A DNA stretch of 37,657 bases. Source: Bacteroidota bacterium (GTDB taxonomy: Bacteria; Bacteroidota; Rhodothermia; Rhodothermales; JAHQVL01). A program made the position numbers and the translations under genes. Where the stretch lies: NCBI GenBank assembly GCA_039111535.1, contig JBCCIM010000039.1, positions 1-37,657 on the forward strand, in the 5' to 3' direction. The notes beneath the pieces are model-generated. The model saw only the letters and a program-made list of their open reading frames with translations, ran no database searches and was not told the DNA's origin. Below are positions 3,391 to 23,674 of this stretch, piece after piece. Each line of letters begins with the position of its first letter. The stretch's first letter is position 1.

Positions 3391-4407
3391 ATGAAAAAGC
3401 TTGCAATCATAGCATGTACAGCACTCCTATTGCTTTGTAACGCTGCACAGGCTCAACAGCCCAAGATCGATGTGCATGTTCATGCCATGTTGCCAACAGA
3501 CAATGGCCCACCTCCATTATTTGCATGCGTACCTGTAATCTCGTACTTACCTGCTCCAAATACGGCTAGTGAATGGCCGCAGCAATTCATGCATGCGCTC
3601 AAGAATCCGGCATGTGACGATCCCATTCCGATACCAGAAACCCCTGAAGCGCTAATGCGGGCTACCATTGTAGAGCTCGAAGCCAACAACGCCGTCGGCA
3701 TTTTAAGTGGTCCCCCAGATCGTGTTAATCTCTGGAAAGAGGCAGCACCGGATCGGTTTATCAAGAGCCTGCAACTCAATATACTGAGAGACCCCTATTC
3801 CGCTGAAGATGCACGAGCGTATTTCGCCGATGGTGGTTTTTTAGTTCTGGGTGAGGTCACCAACCAGTACATTGGGATCGGCCCGAATGACCCGCGCATG
3901 ATGCCCTATTGGGCGATGACTGAAGAAATGGATATACCAGTACAGATCCATATGGGCAGCGGCCCCCCAGGCGCGGGCGCCCTTGTACCGGATTTCCTTG
4001 TTGCAGCAGGTAACCCGTTGCTCCTCGAGCCAGTACTTGCAGAGCACCCAAACCTCCGGATTTCGATCATGCACATGGCGGAAGGGTTCAATGACGAATT
4101 GGTCATGATGCTTTGGACCTATCCACAATTGTATGTAGATATCGGCGGGATTATGTGGGGTAAGGGTATCGAATACTTTTACGGTCAGCTTGAGGACCTT
4201 GTAAACGCAGGGTTTTCGAACCGCTTGATGTTTGGTGCTGACGCCATGACTTGGCCGGGTCTGATTACTCGCTCACTCGAAATCATGGAAAACGCAGACT
4301 TTCTCAGTGAAGCCCAGAAGCAAGACATATACTTCAATAATGCGGTGCGCTTCTTTGGTCTAGATTCAGAAGAAATGAAGCGTCGCGCCTTGGGCAAGAA
4401 ACCATAA
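3391..4407 (+). CDS. Secreted amidohydrolase (amidohydrolase-2 type TIM barrel)
   Basis: A metal-dependent hydrolase or decarboxylase of 338 residues. A signal peptide of about 21 residues (MKKLAIIACTALLLLCNA, cut near AQA-Q) predicts export, which is less common for this family. H29 and H31 in DVHVHA are the first-strand metal ligands. H187 (QIHMGSG), H228 (IMHMAEG) and D284 (FGADAM) fit the remaining active-site positions. I chose the ATG at 3391 because it begins the signal peptide directly; an earlier ATG at 3349 would bury it behind 14 residues. The substrate is unknown. The gene lies between the tRNA-Leu fragment and the intact tRNA-Leu, so it may have arrived on an inserted segment. 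Confidence 0.85.
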   Translation: MKKLAIIACTALLLLCNAAQAQQPKIDVHVHAMLPTDNGPPPLFACVPVISYLPAPNTASEWPQQFMHALKNPACDDPIPIPETPEALMRATIVELEANNAVGILSGPPDRVNLWKEAAPDRFIKSLQLNILRDPYSAEDARAYFADGGFLVLGEVTNQYIGIGPNDPRMMPYWAMTEEMDIPVQIHMGSGPPGAGALVPDFLVAAGNPLLLEPVLAEHPNLRISIMHMAEGFNDELVMMLWTYPQLYVDIGGIMWGKGIEYFYGQLEDLVNAGFSNRLMFGADAMTWPGLITRSLEIMENADFLSEAQKQDIYFNNAVRFFGLDSEEMKRRALGKKP

Positions 4408-4678
4408 GACGCCACAAAACAATATGCTCTCCGGAATCGGGACGTGAGATCAACCAAAAAAAGGTGAAGAGCAAAGCCCACTTTTATATCCCTGAAATGC
4501 TAAAGCTTAATGCACAACCACTATGTTGAGTACAGGTATCACAAGAGGTCATTGATCTCCTCACTGACACCATAGTGCTATCCAGGAAGTCTTCAGGAAA
4601 GACTCAAATTGCACAGCTACCCTGACGTTTTAGAAATGCACTACTGTCAGCCACAGAAATAGAAATTTCCCAAAACGC
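4408..4678. other. Intergenic region, nothing recognised
   Basis: This stretch follows the amidohydrolase stop and runs to the tRNA-Leu terminator. I see no convincing coding sequence or repeat. Confidence 0.5.
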
Positions 4679-4714
4679 AAAAAACGGCCAAATCCGATCA
4701 GATTCGCCGTTTTT
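4679..4714 (-). terminator. Terminator of tRNA-Leu
   Basis: The hairpin pairs AAAAACGG and AAATC on one side with GATT and CCGTTTTT on the other. On the reverse strand it sits six bases past the tRNA 3' end and finishes in a T run. Confidence 0.8.
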
Positions 4715-4720
4715 CTGAAG

Positions 4721-4804
4721 TGCCCAAGAGAGGACTCGAACCTCCACGGGGTTGCCCCCACTACACCCTGAATGTAGCGCGTCTACCAATTCCGCCACTT
4801 GGGC
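4721..4804 (-). tRNA. tRNA-Leu (anticodon CAG)
   Basis: Read on the reverse strand, the acceptor strands GCCCAAG and CTTGGGC pair. The D arm contains AATTGGTAGAC. The anticodon stem CTACA/TGTAG encloses loop TTCAGGG, giving anticodon CAG. A long variable arm (GGGGGCAACCCC) marks a class II tRNA, and the T loop is TTCGAGT. The discriminator is A and no CCA is encoded. The 84-nt length fits tRNA-Leu. Confidence 0.97.
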
Positions 4805-5077
4805 AAGGCTGCATTTTTTGCAAGTGACCGCTCTAACGCACAATTTGCAATCCGGATTCCACCCGCCGGCAAAAATCTGCGCCCGTTGCGTATATTCGGA
4901 TACACAAATACGAATTAAGGGTAGCGTTTAATGCCGATTTTCGAGTGCCGAATGCCGAGTGATTTATTTTTTGCGTTTCTGTCTTCAGAAACCTCGACCG
5001 GAACGGCAAATCCGTAACTGGGATGTTCTACCCTTAATCTGCAATACTTACTAAAATTGACTTGAGCATCCGATTCT
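4805..5077. other. Intergenic region with a degenerate GCCGA-type repeat
   Basis: It holds a short imperfect repeat near 4931-4962 (CGAGTGCCGAATGCCGAGTG). A related sequence lies past the next gene near 6967-6996. Otherwise there is only the presumed promoter of the M1 peptidase. Confidence 0.4.
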
Positions 5078-6964
5078 ATGTATCGCCGGCTACTTTCCTG
5101 CTTCTTTGCTTTCTGCCTCTTTCTCCCCACAGCTGTTGCCCAACGCCCCGTGCCCTATCCCGTATTCACCACCCCGCAATTTGACCAGGCCGTAGCCAAC
5201 GGCACACGCAACCTCGACGGTACACCCGGCACAAACTACTGGACCAACACCGCCTCCTACTCCATCGAAGCCGCGCTAATGCCGGATAGCGCATTTGTTG
5301 TGGGTGACGTGATTGCTACCTACACAAACAACAGTCCTGACACACTCGACACTATCGTCATGCACCTGCGGCAAAACCTGCACAAAGCCGGCGCAGTACG
5401 CAACCGCCCGCAGCAGCTCACTGGCGGCATGGATGTACAAAACGTTACCGTCGATTACAGCCCCGCAGACTACGACATCAACGGTACCCTCATGTACCTC
5501 GCGCTGGAAAAACCGCTACTCCCGGATAGCAGTTTACTCGTGGGCATGCACTGGACCTTCAAAATCCCAGAGCCCGGCGCGCCCCGCATGGGTGGAGATG
5601 GTGAGGTCTTCTTTGTCGCCTACTGGTACCCGCAATTTGCCATGTATGACGACCTCCGCGGCTGGAAAGCAGATCAATACATGGGCAATGGCGAGTTTTA
5701 CATGGGCTTCGCAGATTACGACGTACACCTGACCGCCCCCGCCGGCTGGGTCATGGCGGCTACCGGTACGCTACAAAATCCAATGGCAACGCTTTCTGAT
5801 TCATCTCAGGCTCGACTTGCGCGCGCAAGCCGGACGCGAGACATTGTGTCGATGCTGAGTGCTGACGAAGTGGCTTCCGGCTTTTCTGCCACACAACCCG
5901 GTGGTGTTGTAACCTGGCACTACAAAGCAGAGCAGGTCCGCGACTTCGCGTTTGGCACCTCCAATGCTTACGCCTGGGACGCTACCAGTGCGCTTGCCGG
6001 CGATGTAGACGGCGACGGTGCCATGGACACCACCATGATCCACGCCTTCTATCGCCCCGGTAAAGCTGCCTGGCCCCGCGGCGCTGAGTTCACGCAATAC
6101 TCCGTGGAATTTATGGCCGACAAATTCTTCCCTTACCCCTATCCACACATGACCGCCATGGAAGGCGTTGTTGGTGGCGGGATGGAATTCCCGATGATGA
6201 CCCACATCGGTGGCAACCGAACCGACCAGTCGCTCTTCAGCGTCACGCTCCACGAAGTGGCCCACATGTGGTTTCCCATGATTGTCGGACAGGATGAAAA
6301 AGCGTACACCTGGATGGACGAAGGCCTTACCTCCTTCAACACAAACGAAGGCAAAGCTGCTTTCTGGAACGACTCGACGCAGTGGCTACCATCCAAACAA
6401 TCGTACTACCGCATTGCCGGCACCGGCGATGAGGCCCCCTCCATGCGTCATGGTGACCAGTATCCTTACGGCACCGCTGCACGTGGCATTGCCTCCTATC
6501 GCAAGCCGGCAGTAGCCTTGCACGCCCTCCGTGGCCTGATCGGTGAAGAAGCGTTCATGCACGCCTACCGCACCTACGCAGCGCGTTGGATGTGGAAACA
6601 CGCTACCCCCTACGATTTCTTCAATACGTTTGAAGATGTGCTCGGCCAGGATCTCGACTGGTTCTGGACACCCATGTTCTTCGAAACCTGGACGCTCGAC
6701 CACGCCATAAAAGATGTGGCAGCAGATGAAAATGGCGTAACGGTTATGCTGGAAGATAGAGGCCTAACCCCAATGCCCCTCCCCGTGCGGTTAACCTATA
6801 AAGATGGCAACGTTGAAGAAGGCGTCGTCTCGCTCGACACCTGGCTTTCTGGCAACCGCGAAGCCCAACTCACTTTCCCCGCCGGCGAAATCCAAAAAGT
6901 AGAAATCGACCCCGGCCTCTTCCTCCCCGATGTCGACCGCTCCAACAATACCTGGCAGCCGTAG
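5078..6964 (+). CDS. Secreted M1 family zinc metallopeptidase
   Basis: A zinc-dependent aminopeptidase-type protease of 628 residues, exported by a signal peptide of about 21 residues (cut near VAQ-R). H392-E393-x-x-H396 (HEVAH) with E415 (WMDEGLTSF) gives the exact HExxH-x18-E zinc site of family M1. GGMEFP at about residues 367-372 is the counterpart of the GAMEN exopeptidase motif, with E370 expected to bind the substrate N-terminus. Residues ~40-270 are the N-terminal beta domain and ~275-540 the catalytic domain. A short beta domain ends the protein, and I see no sorting tail. It probably trims peptides in the periplasm or outside the cell. The gene appears monocistronic. Confidence 0.93.
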   Translation: MYRRLLSCFFAFCLFLPTAVAQRPVPYPVFTTPQFDQAVANGTRNLDGTPGTNYWTNTASYSIEAALMPDSAFVVGDVIATYTNNSPDTLDTIVMHLRQNLHKAGAVRNRPQQLTGGMDVQNVTVDYSPADYDINGTLMYLALEKPLLPDSSLLVGMHWTFKIPEPGAPRMGGDGEVFFVAYWYPQFAMYDDLRGWKADQYMGNGEFYMGFADYDVHLTAPAGWVMAATGTLQNPMATLSDSSQARLARASRTRDIVSMLSADEVASGFSATQPGGVVTWHYKAEQVRDFAFGTSNAYAWDATSALAGDVDGDGAMDTTMIHAFYRPGKAAWPRGAEFTQYSVEFMADKFFPYPYPHMTAMEGVVGGGMEFPMMTHIGGNRTDQSLFSVTLHEVAHMWFPMIVGQDEKAYTWMDEGLTSFNTNEGKAAFWNDSTQWLPSKQSYYRIAGTGDEAPSMRHGDQYPYGTAARGIASYRKPAVALHALRGLIGEEAFMHAYRTYAARWMWKHATPYDFFNTFEDVLGQDLDWFWTPMFFETWTLDHAIKDVAADENGVTVMLEDRGLTPMPLPVRLTYKDGNVEEGVVSLDTWLSGNREAQLTFPAGEIQKVEIDPGLFLPDVDRSNNTWQP

Positions 6965-13518: not shown

Positions 13519-14157
13519 TGTTCTTCCTATGAGTCAATTACTCTTGAGTGAGAATTTCATAGTCCGGTCAGATCTATGAATCGAAGGCCCTCCTTGTAAA
13601 GCGAATAGTTATGCAAGCTGCTGTCTTACATACACATGGTAAAATGGGAGCCTCGTTATCAACCGATACAACATTCTCAAACAAAACAGCTCATTTCGCC
13701 AGCAGTTACATGTCCAGTTTTCCTGAGAACCAAGCGCTTAATCTTCTCACTCCTCAACTATTAAATTTTTTTACCAAAGGGGGGAAAAATGTTATAACCA
13801 GGCAGTGAAGCTGCATGGTGGTACAGCCTGTTGCTTTAGACTGGCAGAATAATCTGCTTCTTCAGTTAATCCTAATGTTAGTGGAAAATCTTGCAAAGGC
13901 ATTAACAAATTTGCGCTGCAACACACAAAAGACGTACAGCTATATTCGACCGCTAAACTTCCTTTATCCACACTTCTTGTATCCTGTAATTCTCGTAGAC
14001 ATGCATAACTACTAAGCAGCAGTGCAAAGGCGGATCAGCCCGCATGGAATATGCCTGTTATCCATTTAACTATTGTTAGCTCGAATGGTAGCACATCCTA
14101 CGTAATTCAACGCTACAGAGCGCAATCCCTGTTTACCTCATATCACCTTACAACCTG
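13519..14157. other. AT-rich intergenic stretch, no convincing gene
   Basis: More than 600 bases hold only short forward frames (13611-13808 and 13815-14015). They have no recognisable domain, poor start context and low-complexity products. The part next to 13518 should contain the promoter of the reverse-strand G8-like gene. Confidence 0.5.
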
Positions 14158-14224
14158 CAAAAACAACCACTTCCCGAACCCTGCGCAACCCCACGTAAAA
14201 GCGTGATACGCCTACCCGGGGAGC
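14158..14224 (+). repeat. Left 67-bp direct repeat ending in a tRNA-Asn 3' end (candidate att site)
   Basis: It aligns without gaps to 23173-23239 with about 53 of 67 positions identical by hand count. The first 18 bases (CAAAAACAACCACTTCCC) are identical. The last 14 bases (14211-14224) exactly match the 3' end of tRNA-Asn including its discriminator. The rest of the tRNA is absent. Confidence 0.8.
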
Positions 14225-14252
14225 AAAGGCGATCTTAGGATCGCCTTTTTTT
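14225..14252 (+). terminator. Terminator following the left tRNA-Asn remnant
   Basis: AAAGGCGATC pairs with GATCGCCTTT around TTAG, followed by a T run. It lies directly after the tRNA 3' fragment, as in the intact tRNA locus. Confidence 0.8.
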
Positions 14253-14833: not shown

Positions 14834-17608
14834 ATGCCCACACAACCAATCGTCATGATCAGCAGTACGGCGCGCGACCTTCCAGCGTACCGCGAGCAGG
14901 TAGAACTCGCCTGCCAGCGCCTGGGCATGGTGCCACGTATGATGGAGCACCTCTCGGCGATGAATGCGAACGCGGTGGAGGCCTCGCTGGCGATGGTCGA
15001 TGGCTGCGACGTGTACGTGGGACTCTTCGCGCATCGCTACGGGCACATTGCGCAGGGCATGGAGGCTTCGATCACGCAGCTGGAATACGAGCGGGCAGTC
15101 CAACAGGGCATTCCGCGCCTGATCTTCCTTATCGATGAGGAAGTGCCCGTCAAACCGCGTGACATAGATACGGGCGATAAGGCAGAGAAACTTAAAGCGT
15201 TGAAGCAGCACCTGATGGAGGAGAACGTGGTTGCCTTCTTTGAGAGCGCGCTGGATTTGTCCACGAAGGTTTTCCAGAGCCTGGTCGAGTTTCGGGAGGA
15301 GCACCGGAAGGCACAAGAAGCAAAGGTCGAAGATCAGAAAGCAGCACCGGCGCCAGTAGAAGAAGCGAAAATGGGTCCACTTGCGGAGCTGCCTCCCCTG
15401 CCGGCGCTGGATCTGCCGCCGAGCCCTTACCGGCGCCTGCAGTGGTTTCGCCGGAAAGATGCCAGCGTGTTCTTCGGCCGTGGAGAGGAGACGCGCGAGC
15501 TGTACAAGGCGCTCAGCGAGCAGTGGTGCGATCCGCTCGTACTGTTCTACGGCGAGAGTGGCGTAGGCAAGTCATCTTTACTGGCGGCCGGCGTACGGCC
15601 ACGGCTCGAATCCAGTCACAGCGTGCATTACATCCGGCGCGACCGCTCGCTGGGCCTCGCCGGTTCACTGGCGCAGGTGCTCGAAACAAGCATGGAGAAG
15701 ATCGCTGAAGCGTGGAAGGCGCAGGAGCGCCGGCAAGGCAGGCCGATGATCGTGATTCTGGATCAGGTCGAAGAGCTGTATACACGCCCCATCGAACGAG
15801 AAGGAGCCACCGAGGACGATGAACTGCAGGAACTCCTGCGGGTATTGCAAAGCCTGTTTGCTGATCCATCTGGCCGGCCCCGTGGACGCCTGGTACTCTC
15901 GTTCCGCAAAGAATGGGTGGCCGACATCGAGGCGCGGCTCATCGAGGCTTCACTACCATTCCACAAGCTGTTCCTGGAGCGTCTGGGCCTTCAGGGTGTG
16001 TTGGAGGTCGTTCGAGGTCCCGCAAGTAGCGAGCGGTTGCAGAGGAAATATAACCTGAGTATCGAACAAGACCTGCCTGAGATCATCGCGGCGAACCTGC
16101 TGAAAGACCGGCAGTCGCCGGTGGCGCCGACGCTTTCGATTTTGCTCGCAAAGATGTGGGAGCAGGTGAAGAACGCCCCCTCTCCATCGTTCACGAAGGA
16201 CCTGTACCTGGATTTAGCGCAGAGGGGGTTGCTCCTGAGCGATTTTCTCGATGAGCAACTGGACGTGCTACAAACATGGAATGCCGAGGTGGTGGAATCG
16301 GGCCTGGCGCTGGACGTGCTGAATCATCACACGACAGACCTGGGTACGGCCGAGACGCGGCTCCTTCCGGGCCTGACGTCGCGCTATCCCAACCGATCTG
16401 ATGTACTGGAGCCGCTGCTACTTGAGTGCCAGGCGGCTTATCTTCTCGTTGGTAGTGAGGTAAAAGACGAAAGCGGGAAGGAAATACCAGCGACACGCCT
16501 GGCGCACGATACCCTCGCTCCGCTGATCCGCCAGCGTTACAAAGACTCGGACCGCCCGGGGCAGCGTGCTGAACGGGTGCTGCAAAGCCGGGTGGCCGAC
16601 TGGCGAAATGACCGGGAAGGAGCGGCGTTGGATGAAGCGGGTTTGGCGGAAGTCGAGCAGGGTTTGTCCGGTATGCGCACCTGGAACGAAGCCGAATCGC
16701 GCCTGGTGGCGGCGAGCCAGAAGGTGCGCCAGCGGCGCCGGGTGCAGCAGTATGCTCTTTATGGCGTGGGTGTATTGGTGATAGGGGTTTTAGGCTGGGT
16801 GTATCAGTATACGAATCGTCACAATGTTTGCAACGCCGCCCGCACCCAGTATGAATGGTGTCGCGCCTGTATCGATAACAGGGGTGAATGGAGCGCAGTC
16901 GGTGATGACATTTCCACCTATTGCGAGGCCGCGCGATTTGCTTTACCGAATCTCAATGAGGATTTCATTGAGATTCCAGCCGGCACGTTCATGATGGGCT
17001 CTGAAGATGAGCGGCCGGTTCATGAGGTGCATATCACGCAGCCTTTCTTTCTGAGTAAGATAGAAGTAACGCAGGCGTGGTGGTACGCTGTGATGGGCAA
17101 CAATCCGAGTTATCGTAAAGGAGCCGATCTTCCGGTTGAGCAGGTTAGCTGGGAAGATGTACAGGCTTTTATGGATAGCCTGAACGTCTTGTCGGATTGT
17201 GATGGATGTTATCGGCTCCCAAGCGAGGCAGAATGGGAGTATGCTGCCCGTGCCGGTACGAGCACGGCCTATAGTTTTGGCGATAATGCGAGCGATCTTG
17301 GTGGATATGGCTGGTATTCAGAGAACAGCGGAGGAGGCACGCAGCCCGTTGGGACGAAATCCCCAAATCCATGGGGATTGTATGACATGCATGGGAACGT
17401 CTGGGAATGGGTGCAGGATTGGTATGGGTCCTACCCGGACAGTTCAGTGACCGATCCACCCGGCCCAGAATCGGGCTCGAGCCGGGTGATTCGCGGCGGT
17501 GGCTGGTTCTACTTCGCCAGGAGCGCTCGCTCGGCGTTTCGCAATGGCTGGAGGCCTGACGGCCGCAATTACGGCGTCGGTTTTCGTGTATTGAGGACTT
17601 ACCCTTAA
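14834..17608 (+). CDS. DGR target 1: DUF4062 - STAND NTPase - TM - FGE/C-type-lectin variable protein
   Basis: A 924-residue sensor-like protein diversified by the DGR. Residues ~5-110 are DUF4062 (IVMISSTARDLPAYREQVE; VGLFAHRYG). A Pro/Ala-rich linker follows (~170-200). The STAND-type P-loop NTPase runs ~205-560, with an FFGRGEE entry motif, Walker A GESGVGKSS from 240 and Walker B MIVILDQVEE near 305; it looks like the nSTAND1 group. A hydrophobic helix lies at ~637-660. Residues ~700-924 are an FGE-sulfatase domain with the C-type lectin fold (PAGTFMMGS, VSWEDVQAF, LPSEAEWEYAARAG, GLYDMHGNVWEW). The VR codes for residues ~881-921, so the variable face is at the C-terminus. The FGE catalytic cysteines are absent, so binding and not catalysis is expected. 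Likely model: ligand binding by the lectin domain triggers the NTPase. I see no strong ribosome-binding site. Confidence 0.92.
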   Translation: MPTQPIVMISSTARDLPAYREQVELACQRLGMVPRMMEHLSAMNANAVEASLAMVDGCDVYVGLFAHRYGHIAQGMEASITQLEYERAVQQGIPRLIFLIDEEVPVKPRDIDTGDKAEKLKALKQHLMEENVVAFFESALDLSTKVFQSLVEFREEHRKAQEAKVEDQKAAPAPVEEAKMGPLAELPPLPALDLPPSPYRRLQWFRRKDASVFFGRGEETRELYKALSEQWCDPLVLFYGESGVGKSSLLAAGVRPRLESSHSVHYIRRDRSLGLAGSLAQVLETSMEKIAEAWKAQERRQGRPMIVILDQVEELYTRPIEREGATEDDELQELLRVLQSLFADPSGRPRGRLVLSFRKEWVADIEARLIEASLPFHKLFLERLGLQGVLEVVRGPASSERLQRKYNLSIEQDLPEIIAANLLKDRQSPVAPTLSILLAKMWEQVKNAPSPSFTKDLYLDLAQRGLLLSDFLDEQLDVLQTWNAEVVESGLALDVLNHHTTDLGTAETRLLPGLTSRYPNRSDVLEPLLLECQAAYLLVGSEVKDESGKEIPATRLAHDTLAPLIRQRYKDSDRPGQRAERVLQSRVADWRNDREGAALDEAGLAEVEQGLSGMRTWNEAESRLVAASQKVRQRRRVQQYALYGVGVLVIGVLGWVYQYTNRHNVCNAARTQYEWCRACIDNRGEWSAVGDDISTYCEAARFALPNLNEDFIEIPAGTFMMGSEDERPVHEVHITQPFFLSKIEVTQAWWYAVMGNNPSYRKGADLPVEQVSWEDVQAFMDSLNVLSDCDGCYRLPSEAEWEYAARAGTSTAYSFGDNASDLGGYGWYSENSGGGTQPVGTKSPNPWGLYDMHGNVWEWVQDWYGSYPDSSVTDPPGPESGSSRVIRGGGWFYFARSARSAFRNGWRPDGRNYGVGFRVLRTYP
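17474..17595 (+). repeat. Variable repeat VR1 of the DGR
   Basis: These 122 nt align without gaps to the TR. By hand count 17 of the 31 TR adenine positions are replaced, and none of the 91 other positions differs. It encodes the C-terminal lectin loop of target 1, from the GSSRVIRGGGW segment to VGFRVL, stopping a few codons before the gene end. Confidence 0.97.
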
Positions 17609-17726
17609 TTCTTTTACCCTTTTACCTTTTGCAGGAAAAGGCCCTGCAGGCGTGAGGCAAGCCGAAGCGAAGCCGGCGCCGAGTAGCCGAAAGGGCGTGG
17701 GTGGGACCAAACCGCCCGTAGGGCGG
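17596..17726 (+). promoter_or_regulatory. VR1 3' flanking block with two hairpins
   Basis: This block is shared with the flanks of VR2 and VR3 and is not found after the TR. Hairpin 1 (17630-17648) pairs TGCAGG with CCTGCA around 7 nt, starting 35 bases past the VR. Hairpin 2 (17712-17726) pairs CCGCCC with GGGCGG around GTA. In the studied Bordetella phage DGR a hairpin just downstream of the VR aids target recognition, so hairpin 1 is the likely equivalent. Hairpin 2 could also be a terminator. Confidence 0.7.
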
Positions 17727-17812
17727 CGACTGGCGATATTTTTTCAGGAACCTGCGCTTCGCCGGTCCTGTGTTAGAAATCCGGCGACAGTCTTCGTTAA
17801 CATATAGAACCG

Positions 17813-18346
17813 ATGCACGTCCGTATATTCACTCTCCGATTCGACGATCTGCTGGGCGGCTTCGACGATGCGCCGTTGCAGGATTTCATCAGGGATAAAG
17901 AGGTGATTGCCATTCGTGATCACTTTTTCACCCGGGAAGGGCGCTCCTTTCTGGCTCTGGTCGTTACCTATAACCTGATGCGACCACCTGATCCTACCGA
18001 CAACGAAAAAAGAGGAAAGAAAGCCAGGGATGCAGCCTGGCGCTCCATGCTCAGCCCGGAGGATTATCCGCTTTTCAATACGCTGCGCGAATGGCGGTCC
18101 GAGCGCTGCAAAGAAGACGGGATTCCACCTTACGTGATCTGCACCAACAAACAATTGGCGGCGATGGTGAAGCAGATGCCGCAGAGCCTCACCGGGCTTG
18201 GTGAAATTGAGGGTTTCGGCAAGGCACGGCTGGAGAAATACGGCGCGGCCATCCTGGAAATCCTGTCTGCTTCTCCCCAAGGTGACCCATTCACTGAAGA
18301 CAAAAGACCACCAGAAGATGAAGAAACCAGCAACGGCTATGGATGA
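17813..18346 (+). CDS. HRDC-domain DGR accessory protein
   Basis: The product has 177 residues. Residues ~1-60 form an N-terminal domain (VRIFTLRFDD; DKEVIAIRDHFFT) of the kind that precedes HRDC in DGR accessory proteins. Residues ~85-155 are an HRDC domain (YPLFNTLREWRSERC, IPPYVICTNKQLAAM, LTGLGEIEGFGKARLEKYG), a helical nucleic-acid-binding fold found at the ends of RecQ helicases and RNase D. HRDC proteins are a recognised but less common DGR accessory; a role in handling the template RNA or cDNA is an inference. It is the first gene of the retro-operon, and its end overlaps the avd-like start by 29 bases, implying coupled translation. Confidence 0.88.
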   Translation: MHVRIFTLRFDDLLGGFDDAPLQDFIRDKEVIAIRDHFFTREGRSFLALVVTYNLMRPPDPTDNEKRGKKARDAAWRSMLSPEDYPLFNTLREWRSERCKEDGIPPYVICTNKQLAAMVKQMPQSLTGLGEIEGFGKARLEKYGAAILEILSASPQGDPFTEDKRPPEDEETSNGYG

Positions 18347-18680
18347 AGACCTCCCCGTATTCGTACACTGGATGGGGTTTCTGGACTGGCTGCTCGATGC
18401 CACGGAGAAATTCCCCAAACACGTGCGTTTTACAATATCAACGCGCATCGAGAACCTGGCGCTCGACATCGTGGAAAACCTGGTCGAGGCGCGCTACGCG
18501 AGAGAGAAAAGCGCCATCCTGCAGCGTGCCAACCTGCGTCTGGAGAAGATCCGCGTACTCCTGCGGATCAGCCACGACCGCCAATACCTGTCCCGCAAAG
18601 GATACCTTCACGCCATGAAAGCGGTCAAAGAAACGGGTCGCATGCTGGGCGGGTGGATAAAGCAACAGGAAACACGATGA
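18318..18680 (+). CDS. avd: Avd-like DGR accessory protein (four-helix bundle)
   Basis: The product has 120 residues and is almost wholly helical and basic. Segments such as FVHWMGFLDWLLDATEKFP, FTISTRIENLALDIVENLVE and LRLEKIRVLLRISHDRQYLS match the Avd / S23-type four-helix-bundle family. Avd forms a pentameric ring, binds the reverse transcriptase and the template RNA, and is required for mutagenic retrohoming in studied DGRs. I start at the ATG at 18318, inside the end of the HRDC gene; an alternative ATG is at 18339. Its stop codon overlaps the RT start as ATGA, so the two are translationally coupled. Confidence 0.88.
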   Translation: MKKPATAMDEDLPVFVHWMGFLDWLLDATEKFPKHVRFTISTRIENLALDIVENLVEARYAREKSAILQRANLRLEKIRVLLRISHDRQYLSRKGYLHAMKAVKETGRMLGGWIKQQETR

Positions 18681-19690
18681 AACGGCTGGGCTTTCTGTTC
18701 GAAGATATCGTATCGCTGGAAAACCTGTTGCTCGCAGCGAAAAAGGCATTTCGTGGCAAGAAGGACCGGACGCGTGTGTCGGCGTTCTACTTCCACCTGG
18801 AAAACGAACTTATGGATCTGCACGAAGAACTCACTTCTGGCACCTACCATCCTTTGCCTTACCGGATGTTCATCATCCACGAGCCCAAGCGCCGGCAGAT
18901 CTGCGCCGCCGATTTCAGGGACCGCGTCGTGCACCACGCTATTTGTAACGTACTCGATCCGATGTTCGAGCGGTGCATGATCCACGACACGTACGCCTGC
19001 CGGCCTAACAAAGGCACGCACGCGGCCACAGCACAGGCACAAAAGTTTGCACGTCGATTCAACTACTATTTGAAGTGCGACATCGTCAAGTATTTCCACA
19101 GCATCGACCACGATGTTCTCAAAACGATGCTCGCCTCAAAAATTAAGGACGCCCGGCTTTTGCGGTTGCTCCACACGATCATCGATCACCCGCTGCCCGG
19201 CGGTAGAGCCGGCAAGGGGCTACCCATCGGCAACCTGACCAGCCAGTACTTCGCCAACTTCTACATGGGCCGGCTGGATCACTTTCTCAAAGATCGCCTC
19301 GGCGTAAAAGGATATATCCGCTACATGGACGATTTTCTGTTATTCGCCGATGACAAGTCTGCGTTACGCGATCATCTTTCGTCAATCTGGAGCTTTCTCA
19401 GCGAAAGATTACGCCTCGAACTCAAAGAGAAGGCAGTGATTGTGGCGCCCGTTTCACAAGGCATCCCGTTTTTGGGCTTCCGCGTCTTTCCGGGTCTTAT
19501 CCGGCTGGAGGCCAGGAAGTGGACGCGCTTTCGCCGCAAGGTCCGAGACCTGGAAAGCGATTTTCTTGAAGGCTACATAGAAAAGGAAGAACTATCCAGC
19601 CGCGTATCGTGCATGATCGGCCACGTGTTGCACGCCGATACGATGGAGGCACGAAAGGCCTTCTTTGCCGGATCATTGCATCTCAGCTGA
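18677..19690 (+). CDS. Diversity-generating retroelement reverse transcriptase
   Basis: An RNA-dependent DNA polymerase of 337 residues, the usual size for DGR RTs, without a maturase or endonuclease domain. Residues 184-190 are IGNLTSQ, the DGR-type replacement of the QGxxxSP motif of retroviral and group II intron RTs. Y216-M217-D218-D219 is the catalytic box ([11 protein letters not shown]). [12 protein letters not shown] and [16 protein letters not shown] give earlier motifs, and the thumb begins after [11 protein letters not shown]. Start: the ATG at 18677 overlaps the avd-like stop; an upstream in-frame ATG at 18653 lies inside that gene. The enzyme copies the TR RNA with errors opposite adenine, and the cDNA replaces the VRs. 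The TR starts 31 bases past the stop codon. Confidence 0.97.
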
Positions 19691-19721
19691 GGTTTCCTCA
19701 AGCAGGGCACTCCCCGAAACA

Positions 19722-19843
19722 GGCTCGAACCGGGTGATTCGCGGCGGTAGCTGGAACAACAACGCCAGGAACGCTCGCTCGGCGAATCGCAATAACTGGA
19801 GGCCTGACAACCGCAATAACAACGTCGGTTTTCGTGTATTGAG
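19722..19843 (+). repeat. Template repeat (TR) of the DGR
   Basis: These 122 nt match all three VRs at every non-adenine base. The sequence has 31 adenines, many in AAC or AAT codons when read in the VR frame. The last 20 bases (GTCGGTTTTCGTGTATTGAG) are unchanged in all VRs, including their two adenines, and act as the candidate initiation-of-mutagenic-homing end. Homology stops at GAG: CAC follows in the TR and GAC in the VRs. The TR lies in the same orientation as the RT and the VRs and needs no translation. Confidence 0.97.
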
Positions 19844-19947
19844 CACATGGTATTGCCAGAGGACGCCGTTCACGGGTTGCGTTCGCGTGCACAAGGACCA
19901 TGTCCAGGGGAGCGTCCTGTGCCGGCTCAGGCCAGCCAAATAACAAT
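19844..19947 (+). ncRNA. Structured 3' part of the TR transcript
   Basis: Between TR and terminator, GGACGC (19861-19866) can pair with GCGTCC (19912-19917). Inside is a small GGAC-CAT-GTCC hairpin (19895-19905). Studied DGRs need a structured RNA next to the TR to prime cDNA synthesis and bind Avd-RT, so this is the likely equivalent placed on the 3' side. The full template RNA would extend from somewhere upstream of 19722 to about 20000. Confidence 0.5.
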
Positions 19948-19999
19948 AGCCCGTCGCGTTTGGTAGGCCGCTTGCTCGAAGAAGGCGACGGGCTTTTTT
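19948..19999 (+). terminator. Terminator of the RT-TR transcript
   Basis: AGCCCGTCGC (19948-19957) pairs exactly with GCGACGGGCT (19985-19994), followed by a T run. The loop is long (27 nt). It separates the retro-operon from target 2. Confidence 0.8.
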
Positions 20000-20061
20000 G
20001 TCAGGTATCGCAGCTTATTACCTTTCTCCGATCAAAAAGCCGCTTGTTCTTTTTTGGTTCA

Positions 20062-20081
20062 ATGTCTAACATCCTACTTGT
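20062..20081 (+). promoter_or_regulatory. Conserved upstream motif of the TIR target genes (copy 1)
   Basis: AATGTCTAACATC followed by CTTGT lies about 30 bases before the target 2 start. A nearly identical sequence precedes target 3 at 21753-21771, at the same distance. It may be a promoter or operator element, or simply residue of gene duplication. Confidence 0.35.
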
Positions 20082-20110
20082 GACGCAGAATTACCACCAT
20101 ATCTTTTAAG

Positions 20111-21601
20111 ATGGCCGACATCTTCATTTCATACAAGCGTGAAGACCGGGTATGGGCAGAGGCGCTATCCAGGGGTTTGGAGCGTCAAGGTTGGACGACG
20201 TGGTGGGATACGCGTCTGGCTGCGGGTGAAAGCTTCGACAAGGTGATCGAGACGCAACTGGATGCGGCGAAATGCGTGATTGTACTCTGGTCGAAGGAGT
20301 CTGTAGAAAGCAAATGGGTGATTGCTGAGGCGGCAGAAGGCCTGGAGCGCGAGATCATCGTGCCGGTATTCATAGAGGAAGCGCGTCCCCCACTGGTATT
20401 CCGAAGAATTCATACGGCACGTTTGATAGGCTGGAAGAAAAGCGCAGAGGAAGCGATTTTCGTGCGTCTGATAGCAGATGTGAGCCGTATTTTGGGACCG
20501 TCGCCAAAGGAGCAAGAAGCTGAGAAAGCACGCGAGGCGGAAAAACGGCAGACGCGTGAGCGCGTGAAATCCGAGAAGGCTGAACAGGTGCGAAAGCAAA
20601 CGCTCGAAGAAGCAAGCCGTAAACAGGAAACGGAACGTGAGGCTAAACGTCTGCCTCCGGAACAAGGTGAGCGAAAAAAGGAAAGCAAGCCCGTCACGAA
20701 GCCTCCTACCAGATTTGTTCAGGAGCCAGTCAGGACTGGTAAACAGTCCGGGACTGAAGCGAGGCCGGTCATGCCGAACCATCAACCATTGCCGCGTGCT
20801 GCCTTGTGGGCTGGCGGTGTTCTAGGGCTTGTCCTCATCCTCTATTTCGTTCAGCAGGGGTTTAAGCCTGCCCCGGCCACGCTTCCGACCGATTCGGGGC
20901 AATCAGGTGACAATGAAATAACGCGGCAGGGCATCGAGTTTGTTCTGATTGAAGAAGGATCGTTTCAGATGGGGTCGGATAGTGGAGATTCAGACGAAAA
21001 GCCAATCCATGAAGTACGCATTAGCAGCCCGTTCTATCTGGGGAAATATGAAGTAACGCAAGCCCAGTGGTATGCGGTAATGGGTAACAATGAAAGCGGA
21101 TTCAGAGGTACAGACCGTCCAGTCGAACGTGTATCCTGGAACGATGTGCAGGATTTTATCCAGCAGTTGAACGACCGGGAGAACTGCGACAACTGTTACC
21201 GACTGCCCACGGAGGCAGAATGGGAGTACGCGGCCCGGGCTGGCACGACTACGGCCTATTCATTCGGCGATAATGACGCAGAGCTGGGCAATTATGCGTG
21301 GTATACAGGAAACAGCAATGGAGAGACGCACCCGGTAGGCAAGAAGCAACCGAATCGGTGGGGATTATATGATATGCATGGAAACGTATGGGAGTGGGTT
21401 CATGACTGGTATGATTCTGAATACTATAACCGAAGTCCCTCAGTCGATCCGGTAAATGAAGAATCAGGCTCGTACCGGGTGATTCGCGGCGGTAGCTGGT
21501 TCAACGGCGCCGGGTACGCTCGCTCGGCGCTTCGCGGTCACTGGAGGCCTGTCTACCGCCTTTACGACGTCGGTTTTCGTGTATTGAGGACTATCCCTTG
21601 A
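20111..21601 (+). CDS. DGR target 2: TIR - TM - FGE/C-type-lectin variable protein
   Basis: The product has 496 residues. Residues ~1-130 are a TIR domain (DIFISYKREDRVWAEAL; TTWWDTRLAAGESF), with E73 in SKWVIAEAAEGLE at the expected catalytic glutamate of NAD-cleaving TIRs. Residues ~135-205 are highly charged and probably coiled coil. A hydrophobic helix lies at ~230-250 (AALWAGGVLGLVLILYFV). Residues ~275-496 are an FGE-sulfatase/C-type lectin domain (EEGSFQMGS, VSWNDVQDF, LPTEAEWEYAARAG, GLYDMHGNVWEW). The VR codes for residues ~453-493. If the TIR is cytoplasmic, the diversified lectin head faces the periplasm, recalling a Toll-like receptor with the domain order reversed. That topology is an inference. 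The gene has its own short upstream region after the TR terminator. Confidence 0.92.
   Translation: MADIFISYKREDRVWAEALSRGLERQGWTTWWDTRLAAGESFDKVIETQLDAAKCVIVLWSKESVESKWVIAEAAEGLEREIIVPVFIEEARPPLVFRRIHTARLIGWKKSAEEAIFVRLIADVSRILGPSPKEQEAEKAREAEKRQTRERVKSEKAEQVRKQTLEEASRKQETEREAKRLPPEQGERKKESKPVTKPPTRFVQEPVRTGKQSGTEARPVMPNHQPLPRAALWAGGVLGLVLILYFVQQGFKPAPATLPTDSGQSGDNEITRQGIEFVLIEEGSFQMGSDSGDSDEKPIHEVRISSPFYLGKYEVTQAQWYAVMGNNESGFRGTDRPVERVSWNDVQDFIQQLNDRENCDNCYRLPTEAEWEYAARAGTTTAYSFGDNDAELGNYAWYTGNSNGETHPVGKKQPNRWGLYDMHGNVWEWVHDWYDSEYYNRSPSVDPVNEESGSYRVIRGGSWFNGAGYARSALRGHWRPVYRLYDVGFRVLRTIP
21467..21588 (+). repeat. Variable repeat VR2 of the DGR
   Basis: These 122 nt align without gaps to the TR, with 18 of 31 adenine positions changed and no change at the other 91. 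They encode the C-terminal variable segment of target 2, from the [11 protein letters not shown] segment to VGFRVL. Confidence 0.97.
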
Positions 21602-21716
21602 CCCTATTACCCTTTGTCTCTTAGCAGGCAAACCCTGCAGGCACGAAGAAGCCGAAGCGAAGCCGGCGCCGAGTAGGCGAAAGGGTGCGGGTGGGACCAA
21701 ACCGCCCGTAGGGCGG
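21589..21716 (+). promoter_or_regulatory. VR2 3' flanking block with two hairpins
   Basis: Hairpin 1 (21624-21638) pairs GCAGG with CCTGC around a 5-nt loop, starting 36 bases past the VR. Hairpin 2 (21702-21716) pairs CCGCCC with GGGCGG around GTA and is followed closely by a short T run, so here it may also terminate transcription. The first ~60 bases are nearly identical to the VR3 flank. Confidence 0.7.
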
Positions 21717-21752
21717 CGGGTCTTTTTATGAAATTTTGCTCCTTCGTAATGA

Positions 21753-21771
21753 AATGCCTAACATCTCTTGT
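21753..21771 (+). promoter_or_regulatory. Conserved upstream motif of the TIR target genes (copy 2)
   Basis: AATGCCTAACATC followed by CTTGT matches the motif before target 2 and lies at the same distance, about 30 bases, from the target 3 start. Confidence 0.35.
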
Positions 21772-21800
21772 TTTTAGCATAGGGCGTAACTTCATCTCAA

Positions 21801-22931
21801 ATGGCTGATATCTTCATCTCCTACCAGCGCGAGGACAGAAAAGTAGCAGAAGCGCTCGCTAGTTCCCTTGAACTACTCGGGTATACTACGTGGTGGGATA
21901 CGCGTCTTGGCGCAGGAGAAAGCTTCAGTGAAGTGATCGAAGAGAATTTACATGCGGCAAAGTGTGTAGTTGTGCTGTGGTCGCGTGCGTCTGTAAAAAG
22001 CCGCTGGGTGAGGGATGAAGCGACAGAAGGACTGGAAAGAGGCATCTTAGCGCCGGTAAAGATCGAAGAAGTAAAGCCTCCGATGGGTTTTCGAAGCATC
22101 CATACAGCTAGCCTGATTGGATGGGGGCATGGCGCGCAAGAAACTGCGTTTGTCGAACTGACCGCGGACATAAAACGGTTTGTAAAGCCATCGGTAGTGG
22201 AGAGCAAAGTTTCGCGAACAAAAGCAAAGAAAGAAGCTGTCCCAGCTCCCGCTTTTACCAATAGTATTGGGATGGAGTTCGTGCGGATTGAGCCGGGCAC
22301 GTTCATGATGGGCTCAAATGAATACGATAGTGAGAAACCTGTTCATCAGGTTACGATATCGAAAGGATTCTATCTTGGAAAGTATCCCATAACGCAGGAA
22401 GAATGGCAGGCTGTGATGGGAGAAAACCCGAGCAACTTCAAAGGGAAGAGACACCCCGTCGAATCTATTTCCTGGACAGATGCGCAGGAATTTATCAAAC
22501 GCCTCAACGAGCGGGAGAGTTGTCATGGATGCCACCGGTTGCCGACGGAAGCAGAATGGGAATACGCCTGTCGTGCAGGAACTACGACAGCGTACCGTTT
22601 TGGAGATAGAGAAGAGCAGTTAGGAGCTTATGCATGGTATTGGGAGAATTCGGGAAAGAAAACGCACCCGGTCGGTCAGAAACAACCCAATCCGTGGGGC
22701 CTCTACGACATGCACGGCAACGTATGGGAGTGGGTAGAGGATTGGTATGGACCTTATTCCAGCGGAGCGCAGACCGATCCTAAAGGTCTGAACTCGGGCT
22801 CGGGCCGGGTGGTTCGCGGCGGTGGCTGGTACGACGACGCCGGGAACGCTCGCTCGGCGTTTCGCGATTACTGGTGGCCTGACGCCCGCAATCTCTACGT
22901 CGGTTTTCGTGTATTGAGGACTATCCCTTGA
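21801..22931 (+). CDS. DGR target 3: soluble TIR - FGE/C-type-lectin variable protein
   Basis: The product has 376 residues. The TIR domain (~1-130) is closely related to that of target 2, with E73 at the same residue number (SRWVRDEATEGLE). A short Lys/Ala linker (~131-148) leads straight into the FGE-sulfatase/C-type lectin domain (~150-376; PGTFMMGSNEYDSEK, ISWTDAQEF, LPTEAEWEYACRAG, GLYDMHGNVWEW). No transmembrane or signal segment is present, so the protein is probably cytoplasmic, unlike targets 1 and 2. The VR codes for residues ~333-373. It likely arose by duplication of a TIR target with gain or loss of the membrane linker. The function is inferred as an intracellular ligand sensor whose TIR domain acts on NAD-type nucleotides. 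Confidence 0.92.
   Translation: MADIFISYQREDRKVAEALASSLELLGYTTWWDTRLGAGESFSEVIEENLHAAKCVVVLWSRASVKSRWVRDEATEGLERGILAPVKIEEVKPPMGFRSIHTASLIGWGHGAQETAFVELTADIKRFVKPSVVESKVSRTKAKKEAVPAPAFTNSIGMEFVRIEPGTFMMGSNEYDSEKPVHQVTISKGFYLGKYPITQEEWQAVMGENPSNFKGKRHPVESISWTDAQEFIKRLNERESCHGCHRLPTEAEWEYACRAGTTTAYRFGDREEQLGAYAWYWENSGKKTHPVGQKQPNPWGLYDMHGNVWEWVEDWYGPYSSGAQTDPKGLNSGSGRVVRGGGWYDDAGNARSAFRDYWWPDARNLYVGFRVLRTIP
22797..22918 (+). repeat. Variable repeat VR3 of the DGR
   Basis: These 122 nt align without gaps to the TR, with 18 of 31 adenine positions changed and no change at the other 91. The pattern differs from VR1 and VR2 (for example ATT to GTT and AGG to TGG), so it records separate retrohoming events. 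Confidence 0.97.
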
Positions 22932-23047
22932 CCCTATTACCCTTTGTCTCTTAGCAGGCAAACCCTGCAGGCGCGAGGCAAGCCGAAGCGAAGCCGGCGC
23001 TAAGCAGCCGAAAGGGTGTGCGGGGATTCAGACCGCCCGGAGGGCGG
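22919..23047 (+). promoter_or_regulatory. VR3 3' flanking block with two hairpins
   Basis: Hairpin 1 (22954-22968) pairs GCAGG with CCTGC around a 5-nt loop, 36 bases past the VR. Hairpin 2 (23033-23047) pairs CCGCCC with GGGCGG around GGA instead of GTA. The second half has drifted more than in the VR1 and VR2 flanks. Confidence 0.7.
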
Positions 23048-23172
23048 ACACGTTTAAATTCACTATCGTTCGAAGACAAAAAAGCAGTGTTAGCCCAATT
23101 GTTAGCGCACCCTGCGTAACTAAGCACAACCAGACGTAAATACACGAGACTTCACCTATCCTGTAAAACCCA

Positions 23173-23239
23173 CAAAAACAACCACTTCCCAAACACGACG
23201 TAACCCCACCTAGTATCAGGTTACTCCTACCCGGGAAGC
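23173..23239 (+). repeat. Right 67-bp direct repeat ending in a tRNA-Asn 3' end (candidate att site)
   Basis: This is the partner of 14158-14224, aligned without gaps. Its last 14 bases (23226-23239) match the tRNA-Asn 3' end at 13 of 14 positions. It marks the likely distal boundary of the DGR island. Confidence 0.78.
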
Positions 23240-23254
23240 ATTTAAATTTTACAG

Positions 23255-23297
23255 AAAAGGCGTAGCTCATTGCACTGCAACAGGCTACGCCTTTTTT
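23255..23297 (+). terminator. Terminator following the right tRNA-Asn remnant
   Basis: AAAAGGCGTAGC pairs with GCTACGCCTTTT, followed by further Ts. It again lies just after a tRNA-Asn 3' fragment. Confidence 0.8.
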
Positions 23298-23674
23298 ATT
23301 TGCAGAAAATCCAAAAAAAATTTAGAACCGGACGAGATCAAAATAAGCGGTTCACACCGACACTTCTCAGCAAAACGTCTCGCCATAACCACGCATTGCG
23401 CCAGATAAATCGTTATTGGTCATCTACCTCGCAAAATGGTCCTTTAACTGCACGACACACCCACCCTCATCCCCCATCAAAAGCATTGTTTTTCTACTGC
23501 TAAAGTAATACACTATTAACAAGCCAGATCCCTATTGCAAGCACCTTCTCCCTTGCCAGCCTCTTCTATTTCTGATCCGGCGCGCTCCCCGTAGCCTCTC
23601 TTTTCCTCCCTCTCCCCCATGATGTTCATTTGGCCCGGCTGTATCTGGCACGGGCCCTAAACACAACTATCCTT
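23298..23674. other. Intergenic region, nothing coding recognised
   Basis: This stretch lies between the right island edge and the fasciclin lipoprotein gene. Short frames here (such as 23270-23503) resemble no family. It presumably carries the fasciclin gene promoter. Confidence 0.5.

Follow-up and report, generated by a model that had tools for sequence, protein, structure and literature searches.

The window analyzed here is a stretch of 37,657 nucleotides (nt) from contig JBCCIM010000039.1 of the Bacteroidota assembly GCA_039111535.1 (Rhodothermales). Within 9 kb, it holds one reverse transcriptase (RT) gene, one non-coding template repeat (TR), and three target genes, each carrying a variable repeat (VR) that differs from the TR at adenines alone (Table 1), and it is thus a compact and clean case of a diversity-generating retroelement (DGR). 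A first-pass annotation of the same DNA had placed genes for the RT, an Avd-like protein, and an HRDC protein between the targets, and they do lie between target 1 and targets 2 and 3. Its assignment of the locus to the multi-target DGRs is also sound, as the adenine-only substitutions, a DGR-class RT, Avd, and targets with C-type-lectin-like (CLec) domains all agree. We conclude that this is very probably a complete DGR, chromosomal rather than phage borne, with three targets that join TIR or STAND modules to CLec domains. It belongs to a kind of DGR that has already been described; the identity of the targets, which was absent from the first-pass annotation, is the more interesting part.

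Table 1. Coordinates of the DGR features in the window (aa, amino acids; TM, transmembrane helix)
Feature	Coordinates	Strand	Content and evidence
Target 1, 924 aa	14834-17608	+	DUF4062, nSTAND1, TM (aa 641-659), FGE/CLec with VR1
VR1	17474-17595	+	Homology from 17471; 17 substitutions relative to TR, 17/17 at A
Element after VR1	17596-17726	+	Non-coding; GC-rich inverted repeat 17630-17648; CCGCCC-GTA-GGGCGG hairpin
HRDC-domain accessory protein, 177 aa	17813-18346	+	Pfam HRDC, 3.5e-20
Avd accessory protein, 120 aa	18318-18680	+	Pfam bAvd, 3.5e-20; PHROG 3206 "Avd protein of DGR," 2.9e-26
DGR RT, 337 aa	18677-19690	+	IGNLTSQ and YMDD motifs; 8ub7 and PHROG 1423 matches
TR	19719-19843	+	Earlier 19722-19843, lengthened by 3 nt at the 5' end
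Structured 3' part of TR RNA	19851-19999	+	Own covariance model; weak Rfam RT-3 match
Target 2, 496 aa	20111-21601	+	TIR, long charged linker, TM (aa 230-248), FGE/CLec with VR2
VR2	21467-21588	+	18 substitutions relative to TR, 18/18 at A
Element after VR2	21589-21716	+	Inverted repeat 21624-21638
Target 3, 376 aa	21801-22931	+	TIR, FGE/CLec with VR3
VR3	22797-22918	+	18 substitutions relative to TR, 18/18 at A
Element after VR3	22919-23047	+	Inverted repeat 22954-22968

Template and variable repeats

The first-pass annotation had described the TR and VR1 to VR3 as gapless 122-nt repeats with 53 substitutions, all at the 31 adenines of the TR and none at its 91 other positions. Direct realignment of TR 19722-19843 with the three VRs reproduced these values exactly; 0 of 273 comparisons at non-adenine positions (91 per VR, three VRs) are changed, and the non-adenine substitutions that the annotation had named as contrary evidence did not appear. 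Random placement would put all 53 substitutions on adenines with a chance of ~10^-31, or ~10^-24 when the 28 distinct TR positions that were hit are counted once each. The homology reaches 3 nt further in the 5' direction (ACA at 19719-19721 of the TR; TCG, TCA, and TCG in the VRs), with changes again at adenines alone, and VRs and TR part company directly after position 122 (GAC versus CAC). The two most 3' adenines of the TR, at positions 117 and 121, are unaltered in all three VRs, as would be expected if the cDNA were primed within the adenine-free stretch CGTCGGTTTTCGTGT.

The substitution spectrum comprises 24 A-to-G, 24 A-to-T, and 5 A-to-C changes. At the second adenine of AAC codons in VR1 to VR3, A-to-C occurs at 1 of 27 sites (5 of 53 substitutions overall), and for the RT of Bordetella phage BPP-1 in Escherichia coli the equivalent misincorporation is favored in the NAC context, at ~27% (PMC12875486). 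The scarcity of A-to-C changes reflects either a different spectrum of this RT or selection that removes the products.

Inside the VRs, the three copies agree at all 39 non-adenine third codon positions; in the part of the FGE domains directly upstream, third positions show only 38 to 43% identity between the targets. All three VRs must therefore have been overwritten from the single TR, and recently relative to the duplication and divergence of the genes. The unchanged non-adenine positions likewise point to little time since the last transfer. Judged from these sequences, the DGR looks genuine and recently used. Each target has 17 variable codons, from which ~7e16 protein variants are possible and no stop codon can be reached. 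A pattern search of the 6.6-Mb assembly, allowing ≤3 mismatches at non-adenine positions, recovered the four known copies and no further VR-like sequence. FGE proteins elsewhere in the genome were ruled out as targets of TR 19719-19843.

Machinery and associated nucleic acid elements

The best PDB match of the RT is the chain listed as "Reverse transcriptase" in 8ub7 (E 2.7e-60), which we take to be the BPP-1 bRT; the best group II intron RT (E 3e-28) and the retron Eco8 RT (E 2e-4) fall far behind, so the clustering with retrons or group II introns that, by the first-pass annotation, would have refuted the assignment did not emerge. PHROG 1423 is matched at 7.8e-114, and an RVT_1 profile search of the whole genome found no second RT gene. 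The HRDC, Avd, and RT genes overlap one another, which suggests a single operon that ends with the TR; Avd has an alternative in-frame ATG at 18339. HRDC accessories are known from other DGRs, and orthologues of this one occupy the same place in L033 (50% identical) and in the Prosthecochloris aestuarii plasmid pPAES01 (L055; 53%), both of which have HRDC and Avd in the same gene order. In our local tree, the RT groups with the only two others that combine HRDC and Avd (support 0.99), one from a Chlorobiota conjugative plasmid and the other from a Bacteriovoracaceae metagenome-assembled genome (MAG). This grouping across a plasmid and a MAG suggests that the HRDC-plus-Avd subtype has moved horizontally.

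The TR is followed by a structured RNA part. Its terminal hairpin (19948-19993) has a conserved asymmetric internal loop, UUUGGUAG opposite CGAAGA, and is followed by six T residues; the loop resembles, we presume, a bulged-G (sarcin-ricin-like) motif. The hairpin was first spotted by eye in three loci, and a covariance model was then built on 13 sequences. The model matches 24 of the 25 loci searched in which the TR follows the RT (the exception is L059), a count that does not equal independent events, as many hairpin-bearing loci are closely related, and it also matches one locus with the TR before the RT (L068). These hairpin matches were the strongest in the 601 kb covered by the covariance search. 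Compensatory changes occur in 8 of 10 hairpin pairs, and none of 500 shuffles was equally good. The loop UUGGUAG/CGAAGA 3' of the TR is common to DGRs of several phyla.

Rfam RT-3 (RF03068) aligns over its full length with 19851-19991 (21 bits, E 0.0047, in a 331-nt stretch searched), which is below its gathering cutoff of 40.5, and at that cutoff RT-3 matches none of eight relatives. Based on this weak but full-length match, we consider that the element may be a divergent version of an RT-associated RNA already known, perhaps RT-3, and the Rfam family may be extendable to these DGRs. Our covariance model had at first looked new, but we do not claim a novel RNA family, since RT-3 weakly matches the same stretch.

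About 130 nt of non-coding DNA after each VR is also conserved (80 to 88% identical, with 80% for the copies after VR1 and VR3), in three copies that occur nowhere else in the genome. Each VR is followed, at a distance of 34 to 35 nt, by a short GC-rich inverted repeat, and a CCGCCC/GGGCGG hairpin lies farther downstream. Efficient retrohoming of BPP-1 depends on an inverted repeat that directly follows its VR (PMC3240598). Single-strand folding of the elements in this locus is no better than that of shuffled sequence, and we therefore do not claim a specific cruciform; given this result and loops that differ from those of phages, we only infer a function for the downstream element. The first 40 nt after VR2 and VR3 are 100% identical. 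Over 80 nt (21589-21668 versus 22919-22998), identity is 95 to 100%, whereas the coding sequence upstream of the two VRs is ~60% identical. The downstream identity may result from constraint or from conversion reaching past the VR.

Three receptor-like targets and their proposed role

In all three targets, a C-terminal FGE-sulfatase (C-type-lectin-like) domain carries the VR, and the N terminus belongs to the TIR superfamily. Pfam matches are DUF4062 (1.7e-20), nSTAND1 (1.5e-29), and FGE-sulfatase (2e-49) in target 1, TIR_2 (6.5e-23) and FGE-sulfatase (7e-51) in target 2, and TIR_2 (1.4e-22) and FGE-sulfatase (1e-50) in target 3. The best solved relative of the target 3 FGE domain is the Treponema denticola DGR protein TvpA (2y3c, E 3e-35), which aligns through the VR; modeling of the FGE domain with AlphaFold from four sequences gave a mean pLDDT of 48, and this model was discarded. 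A W-x3-E motif is present in targets 2 and 3, and in the alignment made with target 3, W69-x3-E73 coincides with that of AbTIR, the glutamate of which we take to be the catalytic residue of the NADase. Target 1 DUF4062 matches the solved "TIR/DUF4062" protein KpSwz (10wc, E 5e-5), from a recently described family of TIR-like NADases in anti-phage defense (preprint PMC13174449). In targets 1 and 2, hydropathy predicts one TM helix each; the N-terminal flanks or linkers are positively charged, an arrangement that would place their CLec domains outside the cytoplasm. Target 3 has no helix predicted by hydropathy and no signal sequence.

Our best reading is that the DGR is encoded by the cell and diversifies, in advance, the sensor domains of three receptors of a conflict (anti-phage-like) type. 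The TR/VR relation, the adenine specificity, the gene content, the conserved RNA hairpin, and the overwriting of three VRs are observed at this locus; adenine misreading by RT and Avd, replacement of the VR by cDNA, and help from HRDC are taken over from BPP-1 and published DGR work. An RNA spanning the TR and ending in the structured 3' hairpin would be copied by RT and Avd, probably with assistance from HRDC, and the RT would misincorporate opposite template adenines. The mutated cDNA would then replace the matching 3' segment of any one of the three targets, with two guides, the identical adenine-free stretch at the 3' end of the VR and the conserved element that follows it. The rewritten residues lie in the ligand-binding region of the CLec domains, and the variable lectin face may sense an invader molecule beyond the inner membrane (targets 1 and 2) or in the cytoplasm (target 3). 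Binding could assemble the TIR or STAND part and lead to NAD+ consumption or signaling, and the population would thus carry a ready-made sensor repertoire. For this sensing and assembly step, we draw on domain content and on precedent (PMC10907252, PMC7159879, PMC7517822).

Confidence differs among the parts of this reading. We lean toward an immune role of the three targets, with modest conviction. The fuller proposal, that one TR serves two membrane-anchored receptors with the lectin outside and one soluble receptor inside, as an anticipatory, NAD+-consuming or signaling system that scans both compartments, is offered only tentatively. Several points weigh against this interpretation. The immune role is argued from domain association, and no demonstration of it was found for any DGR-diversified receptor in the literature searched. 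In target 1, Gln82 aligns with the catalytic E97 of KpSwz (PMC13174449; numbering inferred from the chain); a glutamate lies two residues further on, but with glutamine at the likely catalytic position, NADase activity of this protein is doubtful. Among the flanking genes scanned, there is no MoxR/vWA, peptidase, or ThsA-like partner. The inverted repeats of phage DGRs have a GRNA loop 4 to 34 bp from the VR (PMC3240598), and this tetraloop is missing from the downstream inverted repeats here. Finally, the VR 3' end matched 0 IMG/VR contigs, and the genomes searched included none from the same genus.

The strongest competing explanation accepts the DGR but sees in its targets surface proteins or adhesins that serve attachment or bind nutrients or partners, rather than immune sensors. 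Surface attachment and adherence have been discussed for many cellular DGR targets (Roux et al. 2021, PMC8144416), the predicted TM helices of targets 1 and 2 would give the CLec domain an extracytoplasmic position, and the pPAES01 targets look secreted, with hydrophobic N termini and CLec alone. All three targets, however, have signaling or effector N termini (TIR or DUF4062-nSTAND1), and target 3 is without a TM helix or signal sequence, such that we consider adhesion rather unlikely. Less probable still is a relic, a DGR inactivated not long ago with VRs that were diversified earlier and are now fixed. In its favor, the assembly holds one allele per VR, yet the RT, Avd, HRDC, and three target frames are all open, the RT motifs and the hairpin 3' of the TR are intact, and the lack of non-adenine differences leaves only a short time since the last transfer.

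The remaining two explanations deny the DGR itself, and we regard both as refuted. Gene duplication or conversion among paralogues, without template-directed mutagenesis, might account for the likeness of the VRs, as the targets are paralogous and resemble each other also in the non-coding DNA downstream, but conversion cannot restrict 53 of 53 differences to the adenines of a non-coding copy beside an RT. Nor is there any realistic chance that the RT belongs to a retron, a group II intron, or a defense-associated (DRT/UG) system with incidental repeats: PADLOC DRT models match it, as they do many RTs, whereas the 8ub7 DGR chain is ahead by >30 orders of magnitude in E-value, PHROG families of DGR RT and Avd are matched, and the TR/VR pattern is present.

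If the pre-diversified receptor interpretation is correct, the locus would encode randomly pre-diversified immune receptors that present the same recognition surface in two compartments, a repertoire loosely comparable to that of antibodies. Anticipatory immunity by bacterial DGRs was called untested in PMC10907252. As target 3 joins a CLec sensor and a TIR effector on one 376-aa polypeptide, binding and NADase activity are directly measurable.

Related systems and genomic surroundings

The first-pass annotation called the target set unusually rich, a description that finds no support. In one survey, 28.6% of DGRs had more than one VR, in most cases fed by one TR (Yan et al. 2019, PMC6642488), as many as seven targets are known from T. 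denticola strains (PMC4891356), and two or three VRs are present in several of the relatives compared. The distinguishing feature is that one TR serves three receptors, all with TIR-superfamily N termini and apparently in two compartments.

In gene order, the locus resembles the DGR of the conjugative plasmid pPAES01 of P. aestuarii DSM 271 (NC_011061; RT 53% identical), which reads FGE target, HRDC, Avd, RT, TR, FGE target, with overlapping HRDC, Avd, and RT genes and the same RNA hairpin 3' of the TR. It differs in its two CLec-only targets, which have hydrophobic N termini and lack TIR or STAND. Three same-phylum DGRs, L059 (G129), L074 (G119), and L084 (G295), have HRDC, RT, and TR followed by a TIR-FGE target, and L059, with a further large FGE target upstream, has nearly the same layout; in contrast to our locus, they gave no Avd match, and their RTs (37 to 40% identical) form a separate clade in the local tree. 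TIR-CLec DGR targets are therefore found in at least three related genomes, with NACHT-CLec targets in others, and TIR domains on DGR targets are also known from cyanobacteria (PMC7517822) and from clade 5D (PMC10907252).

By target domains, we liken the locus to the cell-encoded "antigen sensor" DGRs of clade 5D in multicellular bacteria (Dore et al. 2024, PMC10907252), which combine a STAND NTPase (nSTAND1/NACHT) or TIR with a diversified C-terminal CLec domain, have several targets per locus, and mix cytoplasmic and periplasmic placement. Here, no NTPase stands between TIR and CLec in two of the three targets, DUF4062 is used in the third, and HRDC is present, whereas HRDC does not occur in the main text of PMC10907252. 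The TvpA DGR of T. denticola shares FGE-type CLec targets, an HRDC gene overlapping the RT gene, and one TR for up to seven targets (PMC4891356), but most of its targets are lipoproteins encoded at dispersed sites in the genome rather than clustered TIR/STAND receptors. BPP-1 has in common the RT (8ub7, taken as bRT), Avd, adenine-specific TR-to-VR transfer, and an inverted repeat after the VR, and differs in its phage tail fiber target, its single VR, its GRNA-loop hairpin, and the lack of HRDC. Swarozyc (a DUF4062 TIR-like NADase; preprint PMC13174449) and AbTIR are homologous to the N-terminal domains of the targets; in this locus, those domains are fused to a DGR-variable CLec, the catalytic glutamate is uncertain in target 1, and no Thoeris ThsA partner was recognized.

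The genes flanking the DGR are ordinary metabolic or cell-surface genes. A viral origin was considered and rejected, as viral contigs contained no close RT relative and no VR end. Two 77-nt direct repeats, 78% identical, at 14149-14250 and 23164-23300, bracket the DGR island; they occur in two copies in the genome and in 0 of 59 relatives. Each has a terminator-like hairpin and a very stable predicted RNA fold (z -5.0 and -7.7), and the first copy has no convincing Rfam match. These repeats are possible small RNAs or mobile-cassette boundaries.

Other DGR-like loci occur in this genome and its relatives. In the same genome, a DUF4062-NACHT-FGE-like protein (G000:C290, L116, 1833-4931) has a VR-like C terminus that does not match TR 19719-19843; a second DGR on C290 was rejected, as no TR or RT was found for this VR-like end. 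In the sister genome G001, from the same family, three loci (L113, 743-3568, minus strand; L115, ~9166, plus strand; L032, ~3619-6858, minus strand) encode a target 1 orthologue and two other FGE proteins, which share a variable-repeat-like end that differs from the one in the window. L032 also has an RT fragment near the contig end, and the G001 loci are probably a separate multi-target DGR. Two Ignavibacteria MAG contigs, L034 (6444-9889) and L035, carry DGRs with the TR upstream of the RT; in L034, three VRs lie in small proteins, and the DGR appears to be located among Mu-like prophage genes.

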